Source: Pyrobaculum sp. 3827-6 (GTDB lineage Archaea > Thermoproteota > Thermoprotei > Thermoproteales > Thermoproteaceae). Taken from it: 64,000 nucleotides of DNA. Position numbers and translations under genes: made by a program. Under the pieces are notes generated by a model. The model did no database searches, was not told the DNA's origin, and saw nothing but the letters and a program-made list of their open reading frames with translations. The stretch's first letter is position 1. Each line of letters opens with the position of its first letter. This document shows positions 42,619 through 46,341 of the stretch, in pieces. The stretch spans positions 992,001-1,056,000 of the forward strand of contig NZ_JAOTQN010000001.1 in NCBI RefSeq assembly GCF_025641885.1. Direction: 5' to 3'.

Positions 42619-43398
42619 TTAGTCCGTTATGTGTGTCCCGGCTCCGTTTAGGGCTGTGTCTATGGGGCTGTCGGCGAGTCCGCTTGCGATTATTACCTCT
42701 ATGCCGGTTTTGGCGGCCTCGGTGGCCATGAGTAGCTTTCTCTTCATGCCTCCCCTCACCTCTTCGCTTTGGACTAGCTTCTCTGCCTCTGGGGCGGTGA
42801 GGTGGGGGACCACCTTCCCGCCTATGTAGAGGCCCTCCACGTCGCTGAGGAGCAGGAGCTTCTGGGCCTTCACGGCCTTGGCTACGTCGAAGGCTAGCTG
42901 GTCTCCGTCGACGTTTAGAAGCTCGCCCTTCTCGGACACGGCGATGGGTGCCAGCACCTTGAGGGGTGGGGGGAGTAGCTTGTCTGCATCTATCTGGGTG
43001 ATGCGGCCGACGTAGCCTCCGTCTACCACCCTCTGCCGGCCTCTCTCGTCTACTATCAAGACTTTTTCTTTGCGCTTCGCCTTGACGACGCCGAGGTCTG
43101 CGCCGGTTAGGCCGAGGGCCGGCACGCCGAGGGCGTGGAGGGCGGCTACTATCTGCTTGTTTATCCAGTTCATGGCCATGACGAAGGTTTTTAGAGTTTC
43201 CCAGTCGGTGTATCTGCTTACGAGGCCTCCTGGGTGGGTTAGGTACTTGGGTTCTAGGCCTAGTCGCTTCATGAGGTCGTTTACCATGCAGCCGCCTCCG
43301 TGCACCACGACGGCGCGGTCTGCGTATTTGGGGAGGTTTTGTATTGTCTTGGTGGGGTCTTTGCAGACTACCGACCCCCCGATCTTTATGACTATCAT
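42619..43398 (-). CDS. lysZ: [LysW]-aminoadipate/glutamate kinase (acetylglutamate kinase family)
   Basis: LysZ phosphorylates the LysW-bound intermediate. The family motifs are KIGGSVV at the N terminus, [17 protein letters not shown], the LTGADLGVV region and [10 protein letters not shown]; a C-terminal [10 protein letters not shown] completes the nucleotide site. Length is 259 residues. Its ATG overlaps the lysY stop by 4 bases, so it is the last gene of lysX-lysY-lysZ. Confidence 0.88.
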
Positions 43399-44450
43399 AT
43401 GGGGGCGATGGGGATTGTCCTCAGCCCCTCGTCCTCTGGGAAGCCCATGGCGATGTTGAAGGCCTGCACCGCCTGGCCGGCGGCGCCTCTGACTAGGTTG
43501 TCTATGGCGGCGAAGGTGACTACCCGGCCGAGGCGGGGGTCGATCTCAAACCCAATGTCGACGTAGTTGGAGCCGAGGATGTACTTGACGTTGGGGTACC
43601 GGGACACGCCGAGGCGGTCTTTTACCAGTCTTATGAACTTCGAGTCGCTGTACATTGACCTGTAGTATTTCCACATGTCGGCCTCCGTGGGGGTCTTGTC
43701 GGTGTATACGTGGCCTGTGGTGAATATGCCCCTCACGATGTCGACGGCGTGGGGAGTGAAGGCCACCTTTACGGACCTGCCGGCGAGTAGGCTGAGCTCC
43801 TGCTCAATCTCGGCGATGTGGCGGTGGTGGACGGGCTCGTAGGGCCTCACTACGTAGGTGCGGAAGCTGTGTAGGTCGACGAAGGAGCCCTCGGCGCCGG
43901 CGCCGCTGGAGCCTATCTTGGCGTCTACCACGGGTGGGGTGTTGCCTATGACGCCGTGTTTTGCCAGGGGGGCTAGCATGAGTATGGAGGCGGTGGCCAT
44001 GCAGCCCGGCACCGCGACGAGCTTTGCGCCGGGTAGCTCGTGTCTGTGGAGCTCGGGCTGTCCGTATACGGCCTTCTGGAGGAGGTCGGGGTATGGGTGG
44101 GGCTGTGGCCACCTGTACCACTGGACGTAGGCGTTGGGGTCCTTGAGGCGGAAGTCGGCGCTGAGGTCGAATACGGCGGCTCCTGATTCGTAGAGCTTGG
44201 GCACCCACTTGACGGACTCGCCGTGTGGCAGGGCTAGGAACACTACGTCGGCCTTCAAGGCGGCGTCGATCGACGGCTCGACGAACTTCAGCTGGGTTAC
44301 GCCGCGGAGGTTGGGGTGCACCCTGTAGACGTACTCCCCCTTGAACTTGCGGGAGGTGGCGCAGACCACCTCGACTCCGCTGTGCTGTAGGAGTAGCCTC
44401 AGGAGCTCCCCTCCGACGAATCCCGAGGCGCCTACTACGCAGACTTTCAT
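43395..44450 (-). CDS. lysY: [LysW]-aminoadipate/glutamate 6-phosphate reductase
   Basis: LysY (ArgC family) reduces the LysW-bound acyl phosphate. NADP site: [18 protein letters not shown]; catalytic cysteine in [14 protein letters not shown]; substrate part [19 protein letters not shown]. The open frame runs on to 45131, but everything upstream of [10 protein letters not shown] (ATG 44450) lies over lysX and reads as Pro/Arg-rich nonsense. 351 residues. The ATG overlaps the lysX stop. Confidence 0.9.
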
Positions 44451-45120
44451 ACGAGCTCTGCCAGCGCCTGCGCCTCGTCTCTGTTTTCTATGGCGGGTAC
44501 GGGGTCGACGTCGACGACGTACTGGGCGGAGCCGTAGCTTCCGAGGGTGACGCGGGCGTACAGCAGCCCGAGGTCCTTTAGGACGTCTGCCACTAGGCCG
44601 GTGGCTGTCTTCGCCGTGGCGAATATCTTGGCTGTGGAGTGGGGCTTCGGTATGACGATGGTCACCTTGGAGAGGGGGTTGCGCATGTACATCCTGTGTT
44701 CTATCACGCTTTTGGCCCCCTCGACGCTGGTCACGGGGCCGTCGAGGTCTAGGCGCCAGGCTGTGAGGAGTAGCCATGGCCTCTCCAGCTCTACCTTCTC
44801 TACTGTGTGGTCTGTTGATACGAGGGCGTAGGGGGGTCCGTATTTGGGTATCCAGTTGAGGCGGTTGAGGGCGGCGTATATGGCGGGGGGCGGGTTGATG
44901 CTCCTCTTCGCGATCTGGCCGTATATGGCGGCGGTGTAGGGGTTGCCCATCCTTAGGATGGCTGTTCCGTGTAGGGCGTGGATGGGGGTTTCGGAGATGT
45001 TTACAACAACGGGCTTGTGGCCCCTTGCGGCCAGCGCGTCTGCTAGTATCTTGTCTTGTAGGGTGGGGCTGTCTGTGAGGATGTATATCGCCCCACTTTC
45101 CCCTCTGGCCCCTGGTCCAT
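44447..45120 (-). CDS. lysX: LysX-like ATP-grasp ligase, expressed only after a -1 frameshift
   Basis: By position and partial similarity this is the LysW-aminoadipate (or glutamate) ligase. The enzyme frame reads AIYILTDSPTLQDKILADAL at its start and contains NRLNWIPKYGPPYALVST and YVVDVDPVP; about 225 residues, shorter than typical LysX (~280). No ATG, GTG or TTG exists in frame for the first ~47 residues. The ATG expected from the promoter (45120, 23 bases after TATATAAG) is one frame off and stops at 45043-45045. Slips of -1 at GAG-GGG-AAA (Lys) or GTG-GGG-CGA (Arg) enter the enzyme frame. Confidence 0.75.
45043..45120 (-). promoter_or_regulatory. lysX leader minigene with Lys- and Arg-coupled slip sites
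   Basis: Zero frame: ATG 45118-45120, 25 codons, TAG 45043-45045. Three runs of four G are read xxG-GGG: 45109-45112 followed by CCA (Pro), 45100-45103 followed by AAA (Lys), 45091-45094 followed by CGA (Arg). A -1 slip at any of them leads into the LysX frame without a stop. Confidence 0.6.
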
Positions 45121-45138: not shown

Positions 45139-45176
45139 CTATATAAGTTTTTTGTCTGCGAAAAGGTTATATATAG
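45139..45176. promoter_or_regulatory. divergent promoter, lysX operon / thrC operon
   Basis: CTATATAAG at 45139-45147 (CTTATATAG on the minus strand) lies about 23 bases before the lysX leader ATG at 45120. TTATATATAG at 45167-45176 lies 22 bases before the thrC leader ATG at 45194. Both predict leaderless transcripts that begin at the leader codons. Confidence 0.65.
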
Positions 45177-45193: not shown

Positions 45194-45235
45194 ATGGAGG
45201 GGATTTCGGGGACGGTGTACGCCTCCGCTGTGTGA
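45194..45235 (+). promoter_or_regulatory. thrC leader minigene with Ile- and Thr-coupled slip sites
   Basis: Zero frame: ATG 45194, 13 codons (MEGISGTVYASAV), TGA 45233-45235. Two runs of four G are read xxG-GGG: 45199-45202 followed by ATT (Ile) and 45208-45211 followed by ACG (Thr). A -1 slip at either gives the frame of threonine synthase, starting GDFGDGVRLRC or GDGVRLRC. Confidence 0.6.
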
Positions 45236-46341
45236 CATGCGGCTCTGTGTTTGCTCCGAACTATAGGCTATATAGGTGTCCCAAGTGTGGGGGCCTTCTC
45301 GAGGTGGAGGTGTCTAACCTCTACTGGGCGCCCAAGGGGAGGGGGGTGTGGCGCTACGCTTCTATGCTCCCGCTTAAGAGCGGCGTGTCGCTGGGGGAGG
45401 GCCAGACTCCTCTTGTGAAGTCGGCGCTGGGGGAGGGGCTCTATGTGAAGTTCGACGGAGCTAACCCGACGGGTAGCTTCAAGGACAGGGGGATGGCGCT
45501 GGGGGTGACGGTGGCGAGGGAGAGCGGGGCTAACAAGGTGGTTGTCGCCTCCACTGGCAACACTGCGGCGTCTGCGGCGGCTTACGCGGCTAGGGCTGGG
45601 CTTAGGTGCTACGTGGTTCTGCCGAGGGGGAACGTGGCGAGGGGTAAGCTGGTGCAGGCGGCGCTTCACGGTGCGGAGCTGGTGATGGTAAACGGCTTTT
45701 TTGACAAGGCGCTGGAGTACGTGGTTAACTACGGCACTAAATACGCCTACCCCCTCAACAGCTTCAACCCGTGGAGGCTGGAGGGGCAGAAGACCCTGGC
45801 TTTTGAGGTGTATGAGGAGCTGGGGTGTCCGGACTATGTGGTGGTGCCGGTGGGGAACGCCGGCAACATATCTGCTATCTGGAAGGGGTTTAGGGAGCTG
45901 GCCTCCCTGGGGCTGTGCGGCAAGCTTCCCAAGATGGTTGGGGTGCAGGCGGAGGGGGCGGCGCCGCTGGCGGACGCGTGGGAGAGGGGGCTGGACGAGC
46001 CTCTATTCGTCGATGAGCCGAGGACAGTGGCGTCGGCGATTAAGATCGGGCGGCCTATCAACTGGCCTAAGGCTTTGAGGGCGGTGAGGGAGTCGGGGGG
46101 CTTCTTCGTGAAGGTGTCTGATGGGGAGATTATGAGGGCGCAGAGGCTCCTGGCGACTAGGGACGGCCTGGGGGCGGAGCCCGCCGGGGCGGCTTCGGTG
46201 GCGGCTGCCCTGAAGCTCGGCCTCGGGGGGACGGTGGTCGCCGTCGTCACCGGCCACGCGTTGAAGGACCCCGACGCGGTGGAGGTATCGGCTAGGGAGG
46301 TTAGGAACGCCGACGAGCTCGCGGAGCTTTTGGAGCGATGA
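45194..46341 (+). CDS. thrC: threonine synthase, expressed only after a -1 frameshift
   Basis: ThrC converts phosphohomoserine to threonine with PLP. An N-terminal zinc ribbon (RCVTCGSVF, RCPKCGGLL) precedes the fold-type II domain; the PLP lysine is in NPTGSFKDRGM and the phosphate loop in VPVGNAGNISA. The in-frame ATG at 45130 lies upstream of the TATA box and would add an unlikely hydrophobic head. The promoter-matched ATG 45194 is in the +1-related frame and terminates after 13 codons. A -1 slip at GAG-GGG-ATT or TCG-GGG-ACG restores ThrC. The aspartokinase gene overlaps its stop. Confidence 0.9.

Follow-up and report, generated by a model that had tools for sequence, protein, structure and literature searches.

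Amino acid biosynthesis in the Thermoproteaceae is likely to be under a genome-wide control that would require neither a dedicated regulator nor an RNA switch. The mRNAs concerned would begin out of frame with the enzymes they encode and would be opened by a starvation-induced slip at the sequence G_GGG; leaders with several such sites would answer to a shortage of any one product, and the N terminus of the enzyme would record which amino acid had been short. The gene from which this proposal originates encodes a LysX/ArgX-like protein and lies in the window, i.e. the whole 64,000-nucleotide stretch of Pyrobaculum sp. 3827-6 DNA analysed here. At this gene and at others described below, the promoter-matched ATG is out of frame with the coding sequence, a G_GGG run follows, the codon after the run (hereafter X) specifies a product of the gene's pathway, and the arrangement is conserved in other genomes. 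The features of the LysX-like operon are as follows.

45140 to 45147, minus strand: TATA box of the LysX-like operon (CTTATATA), 27 nt before ATG 45120
45043 to 45120, minus strand: short ORF in frame 0, putative sensor peptide MDQGPEGKVGRYTSSQTAPPYKTRY, starting at the promoter-matched ATG
45106 to 45112, minus strand: candidate slip site 1, G_GGG (G4 at 45112-45109) followed by CCA (Pro, 45108-45106) in the A site
45097 to 45103, minus strand: candidate slip site 2, G_GGG (G4 at 45103-45100) followed by AAA (Lys, 45099-45097)
45088 to 45094, minus strand: candidate slip site 3, G_GGG (G4 at 45094-45091) followed by CGA (Arg, 45090-45088)
44447 to 45112, minus strand: LysX/ArgX-like protein in the -1 frame, with putative entry by -1 slip; predicted fold matching ArgX (3vpb), LysX/ArgX (5k2m) and LysX (3vpd)
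43395 to 44450, minus strand: argC/lysY (TIGR01850, 417.7 bits), with an ATGA overlap with the preceding LysX-like gene
42619 to 43398, minus strand: lysZ, [LysW]-aminoadipate/[LysW]-glutamate kinase (NF010662, 279 bits), with a 4-nt overlap with argC/lysY

The distance between the TATA box and ATG 45120 falls within the 26-28 nt that are usual between TATA box and start in the leaderless genes of this genome. Read from this ATG on the minus strand, frame 0 is ATG GAC CAG GGG CCA GAG GGG AAA GTG GGG CGA TAT ... TAG, an ORF of 25 codons with its stop TAG at 45045-45043. The long LysX-like frame is -1 relative to the same ATG (CA GGG GCC AGA GGG GAA AGT GGG GCG ATA TAC); it is closed on the upstream side by an in-frame TGA (45130-45128), and its first ATG, GTG or TTG is ATG 44950, about 57 codons past ATG 45120 and about 45 past ATA 45085. 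The first-pass annotation of this DNA had pointed to an ATG one frame off the gene, to a long stretch devoid of start codons in the gene's own frame, and to three G_GGG runs before CCA, AAA and CGA, each of which would allow -1 entry into that frame; all three observations are exact. Among the Arg codons of this genome, CGA is the least used (1.4 per 1000).

The LysX-like gene is the head of an overlapping argC/lysY-lysZ operon, and argC/lysY is probably coupled to it translationally through the ATGA overlap. Its product matches no family in Pfam or NCBIfam, and does not reach the cut-off of the LysX model TIGR02144. The AlphaFold model of the protein (pLDDT 89.5), however, resembles in a Foldseek search the ArgX of Sulfolobus tokodaii (3vpb; TM 0.81, E 9e-13), and further matches are the LysX/ArgX of Thermococcus (5k2m) and the LysX of Thermus (3vpd). 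Because its model matches these structures, we regard the protein, on its predicted fold, as a shortened LysX/ArgX-like protein: it is like the LysX/ArgX ATP-grasp ligases in fold, but about 50 residues shorter, with 15% identity, and unrecognized by the LysX family model. The name LysX that had been given to it earlier is not appropriate. Canonical LysX identity is ruled out by the missing TIGR02144 and Pfam matches, and the true lysX is found on another contig (G000:C4:47524-48342, TIGR02144 score 349.9), where it has its own ATG GGG AAA leader.

A comparison of 5' ends between species, which had been proposed as a check, was possible for 16 further genomes with LysX-like homologues, namely ten other Pyrobaculum and six Thermoproteus (among them P. 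oguniense TE7, Pyrobaculum sp. WP30 and Thermoproteus sp. CP80). The out-of-frame layout is kept in all of them: a promoter-matched ATG in the same wrong phase, together with G_GGG CCA, is present in 17/17 homologues from the two genera, and most also keep AAA and CGA. In the 16 leaders scored, CCA occurs in every one, AAA in 13 and CGA in 14. The leader of Pyrobaculum reads ATG GAT CTG GGG CCA GAG GGG AAA GTG GGG CGA, and that of Thermoproteus ATG GAA TTT TCG GGG AAA ACG GGG CCA GCG GGG CGA. The same three units are thus found in both genera in a different order, the AAA unit preceding the CCA unit in Thermoproteus, so that AAA has been kept though moved. In one genome (G005) only the CCA unit is left, and in another (G001) the AAA unit is lacking. 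Because of these differences, Pyrobaculum and Thermoproteus may each have acquired the Lys unit on their own. Among the readable LysX-like homologues from the family's third genus and from the next family, most start at an ordinary in-frame ATG or GTG. P. oguniense also has a second, degraded LysX-like copy (G002:C1:1204725-1205288), which adjoins thrC and contains an internal TAG.

The same anatomy recurs across the genome. Stretches covering 2.28 of its 2.30 Mb were surveyed for a TATA box followed after about 27 nt by a leaderless ATG, a short frame 0, G_GGG, codon X and a long -1 frame. Including the LysX-like operon, 14 genes have an X that matches their product, and one more is tentative. 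One of the 14, the threonine synthase gene thrC, is the divergent neighbour of the LysX-like operon in the window.

45166 to 45175, plus strand: TATA box of thrC, from the sequence
45194 to 45235, plus strand: short ORF of thrC in frame 0, ATG GAG GGG ATT TCG GGG ACG GTG TAC ... TGA
45199 to 45205, plus strand: candidate slip site 1 of thrC, G_GGG then ATT (Ile); an Ile site is present in 7/14 thrC leaders
45208 to 45214, plus strand: candidate slip site 2 of thrC, G_GGG then ACG (Thr); ACA or ACG is present in 14/14 thrC leaders
45199 to 46341, plus strand: threonine synthase in the -1 frame (TIGR00260 thrC, 260 bits)

The other members, with their codons X, are listed here.

Canonical lysX: AAA (Lys), in ATG GGG AAA (Pyrobaculum) or ATG NNN GGG AAA (Thermoproteus)
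Homocitrate synthase (hcs): AAA (Lys)
Carbamoyl-phosphate synthase small subunit (carA): CGA (Arg)
Citramalate synthase (cimA): ATT (Ile)
Acetolactate synthase (ilvB): GTA, CTT and ATT (Val/Leu/Ile)
2-Isopropylmalate synthase (leuA): CTC (Leu)
trpB2: TGG (Trp)
trpD: TGG (Trp)
Tryptophan-tRNA ligase (TrpRS, trpS): TGG (Trp)
Isoleucine-tRNA ligase (IleRS, ileS): ATT (Ile)
N-terminal transketolase gene of the aromatic pathway: TAT and TGG, in relatives also TTT (Tyr/Trp/Phe)
PLP-dependent cysteine-synthase-like gene: TGT (Cys)
aroD-chorismate mutase, tentative (G000:C5:47384, plus strand): ATG GGG TAT TGA (Tyr), gene in the -1 frame

In the leader of the canonical lysX (G000:C4:48350, minus strand; locus L049, 4022-4849), the gene is in the -1 frame in 13/13 genomes examined. 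The lysX genes of the next family offer a different picture: in four of them (L027, L028, L030 and L031, around position 2300 and in L031 around 1296) no in-frame start is found upstream of the conserved N terminus, and ATGGAACGGTTTCC is present out of frame, with no G_GGG. As regards the transketolase, its genes are known to cluster with genes for aromatic amino acids in Thermoproteus tenax (PMC3189178). The aroD-chorismate mutase gene is classed as tentative because a TTG start would fit it too. Shift candidates were discarded if the TATA box was absent or if a start codon lay at leaderless distance; an ABC permease (C4:158454), an FmdE-like gene (C1:1069582), a carbonic anhydrase and the ATGTG cases were set aside in this way as having ordinary GTG or ATG starts. 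A scan of this genome for weaker promoters yielded no further convincing members, and no leaders for His, Met, Ser, Asn or Gln were found in it.

Orthologues were taken from ten genomes, and loci from up to 17 genomes of the two genera. At 20/21 leader sites X encodes an amino acid that is made or charged by the gene's pathway, the exception being Pro; when the labels were shuffled in 200,000 trials, the mean number of matches was 3.9 and the maximum 14, and no trial reached 20. The ATG with the best TATA box is in the phase requiring a -1 shift at 157 of 165 distinct loci. Of the eight exceptions, three are trpD genes of Thermoproteus that lack their own promoter, and three are ileS genes with an additional in-frame ATG; the remaining two are the degraded LysX-like copy of P. 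oguniense and one cysteine-gene locus without an ATG. X changes only synonymously (ACA/ACG, GTA/GTC/GTT, CTT/CTC, ATT/ATC, TAT/TAC, TGT/TGC), even though that third base doubles as the first base of the following codon in the enzyme frame and is free to alter residues of the enzyme. Over all leaders, TATA box and ATG are 24-31 nt apart (mostly 27-29), and frame 0 runs for 3-28 codons to its stop, which in several species comes immediately after the Trp codon of trpB2. The run is G4 or longer at every site counted, and exactly G4 at 210/227.

The most coherent reading of these data is that each leader is a translational attenuator, sensing aminoacyl-tRNA by -1 frameshifting, which we consider very probable. 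The proposal was made because the geometry is that of slippage by a single tRNA next to a vacant A site: a tRNA on GGG can fully re-pair one base back, and no such re-pairing is open to the A-site codon (AAA would turn into GAA, and CTC into GCT). The leaderless mRNA would start at the out-of-frame AUG. As long as the amino acid is plentiful, X would be decoded after G_GGG, and the ribosome would stay in frame 0 and stop within 3-28 codons. With charged tRNA for X scarce, the A site would remain empty while tRNA-Gly occupies GGG in the P site; this tRNA would then move back by one base to pair with the other GGG contained in the G4 run, and bring the ribosome into the -1 frame. The result would be the biosynthetic enzyme or the aminoacyl-tRNA synthetase, and operon mates such as lysY-lysZ would follow by overlap coupling. 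Leaders with several sites would act as OR gates, for Lys/Arg/Pro, Val/Leu/Ile, Tyr/Trp/Phe and Thr/Ile. Depending on the slip used, the LysX-like protein is predicted to begin with MDQGAR..., MDQGPEGESGA... or MDQGPEGKVGAIY...; the corresponding predictions are (M)ASGAR|TIR for LeuA, (M)SGVV... for TrpB2, and MEGDFGDGVR or MEGISGDGVR for ThrC. That the ATG is used, that the ribosome slips and that shortage induces the slip are each probable, to judge from the nucleotide sequences compared.

The proposal of the first-pass annotation, that -1 slips before Lys and Arg codons sense the products of the pathway, thus gains strong comparative support from the conservation in two genera and from 13 more genes with a matching X. 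It had also been remarked that two of the three A-site codons, those for Lys and Arg, match the products, and this holds; the third may fit too. The CCA (Pro) of the LysX-like operon is the one site outside the obvious product logic, but LysY and LysZ probably lead also to ornithine, and for this reason proline may, on the pathway as reconstructed, be a further product of the operon. A gene of the ornithine-cyclodeaminase family (111 bits) is present in the genome, no proA scores above its family cut-off, and conversion of ornithine to proline is one of two routes proposed in the T. tenax genome paper (PMC3189178). Besides its G_GGG site before CGA (Arg), the carA leader of one genome (L214, from G001) contains another before CCA (Pro), which is consistent with proline being tied to the arginine/ornithine route.

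Concerning the glycine tRNA, ARAGORN detected no tRNA-Gly(CCC), but it gave no tRNA-Gly whatever in this genome, and it copes poorly with intron-containing tRNAs, of which there are many in Pyrobaculum. Noncanonical introns are indeed documented in Pyrobaculum tRNAs (PMC3218864).

Other explanations of the frame relation must be weighed against a charging sensor. The slip might occur at a fixed rate, as in constitutive programmed -1 frameshifting, with X a mere by-product of the sequence of the -1 frame. G_GGG by itself permits a slip, and fucA1 of Sulfolobus solfataricus is a known archaeal example, with a -1 frameshift of about 10% (PMC8211752). A by-product, however, would not track metabolism as X does, with a product codon at 20 of the 21 sites and only synonymous changes, and the leaders have neither a heptamer nor a stimulatory structure, so that we hold a constitutive shift to be improbable. 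The same X-product match is left unexplained by transcriptional slippage, in which RNA polymerase would add a G in the G4 run and restore the frame in some of the mRNAs. The runs do lie very near the transcription start, and one extra G would suffice; still, slippage of this kind would favour runs longer than the G4 that predominates, and it must be rated very improbable.

A non-standard or downstream start in the enzyme frame, with the ATG ORF as a separate leader peptide, deserves attention considering that a GTG or GTA necessarily follows the G run in the -1 frame wherever X is a Trp, Cys or Tyr codon. In trpS, trpB2, trpD and the cysteine gene, translation could formally begin at a GTG, and in carA, lysX, cimA and thrC an in-frame start codon is nearby in some species. 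The ileS gene (G000:C3:136727 and orthologues) has G_GGG ATT or ATC in most species; several Pyrobaculum possess, in addition, an ATG in frame a few codons farther upstream, which gives the impression of a switch in the course of loss or gain. Nevertheless, at 65/157 loci, among them most of the LysX-like, ilvB, hcs and thrC loci, the mRNA offers no ATG, GTG or TTG in frame within 20 codons, and the leaderless ATG is a universal feature. Near-cognate ATN codons are not conserved either: this applies to ATA 45085, once suggested as a start that would overturn the frameshift, and one homologous locus (L018) has no ATN codon there. An alternative start therefore appears distinctly improbable as a general explanation. 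Finally, homopolymers are prone to sequencing errors, and P. oguniense does have its degraded second copy, so that a base missing from the G run, or a set of pseudogenes, might be suspected. The extra base envisaged in the first-pass annotation as a refutation is excluded by the same layout in 16 further genomes; for the whole set, the frame relation is shared by up to 17 separately sequenced genomes, many of them complete, and by 14 gene families whose enzymes are otherwise intact, which leaves error or decay a negligible probability.

The preferred reading, a leader that senses tRNA charging, recalls several known systems. In the trp, his and ilv leaders of bacteria, which act by ribosome-mediated transcription attenuation, a short ORF with product codons makes the ribosome the sensor. 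Here, too, there is a short ORF with cognate codons (frame 0, 3-28 codons) and the ribosome would be the sensor, but the sensor ORF overlaps the gene, the switch would be one of reading frame, and the output would come through translation. A terminator or antiterminator upstream of the gene is not expected, since the spacing from TATA box to ATG predicts that there is no upstream leader. In prfB, the gene of release factor 2, a slowly decoded A-site codon triggers a +1 shift, and the protein made in this way cures the shortage. That shift goes in the +1 direction at a stop codon, depends on a stimulator resembling a Shine-Dalgarno sequence and concerns one gene, whereas the shift proposed here would go in the -1 direction at sense codons, on leaderless mRNAs and in at least 14 genes.

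The closest parallel is the hungry-codon -1 frameshifting of Gallant and Lindsley, in which one tRNA in the P site shifts its pairing back by a base when the aminoacyl-tRNA due next is in short supply, without a stimulatory structure (PMC8211752, PMC5009743). Full -1 re-pairing of the P-site tRNA is shared, with G_GGG at every site counted. In hungry-codon slippage the A-site tRNA is limiting in the relevant condition, and here 20/21 A-site codons correspond to the product. No stimulator is required there, and folding after the slip sites is here weaker than in gene-internal control windows (mean -19.7 versus -21.9 kcal/mol). In minimum free energies at 150 loci, a measure that does not cover pseudoknots, no excess structure indicative of a 3' hairpin stimulator was found. 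The lack of extra folding is to be expected if a single tRNA slips beside a vacant A site, a process for which no stimulator is needed. Some LysX-like leaders can form a GUGGGGC...GCCCCAC hairpin, which results from conserved Ser-Pro-Thr codons; it is absent in Thermoproteus, and was dismissed as a general element. The difference from the classical phenomenon is that hungry-codon slippage has been described as an effect of starvation, whereas here it appears to be built into the gene starts of a regulon, the hungry codon being that of the product.

Canonical programmed -1 frameshifting, on the other hand, uses a two-tRNA heptamer X_XXY_YYZ and a 3' hairpin or pseudoknot as stimulator; in the present leaders only the Gly codon re-pairs (X would become GAA, GCT, GTG, etc.), and minimum free energies gave no sign of a stimulatory hairpin. 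The fucA1 gene of S. solfataricus is the only cellular archaeal -1 frameshift in a 2021 review of archaeal recoding (PMC8211752). It has in common with our leaders that it is an archaeal -1 shift (here deduced from sequence), but it has the heptamer A_AAA_AAT and a putative stem-loop, lies inside the gene and has no link to a product codon, and the present leaders differ in all these respects.

A search of the open-access PMC literature brought up no previous description of such a system. If the proposal is true, it represents a general mechanism of gene regulation undescribed in the literature searched, in which starvation frameshifting is used regulon-wide and nearly half of the amino acids are sensed by such leaders. 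Cellular archaeal -1 frameshifts would rise from one reported case (PMC8211752) to at least 14 gene families, and a possible answer would be at hand to how these archaea regulate amino acid synthesis. For many biosynthetic genes of these genomes the start as annotated would likely be wrong, and N-terminal peptides joining two frames are predicted.

As to the sites themselves, the commonest codon before GGG is TCG (96/227 sites), and AAA, CGA and the CTC of leuA are invariant, even synonymously. Because TCG is favoured and these three codons never vary, the data suggest that the leaders monitor particular tRNAs.
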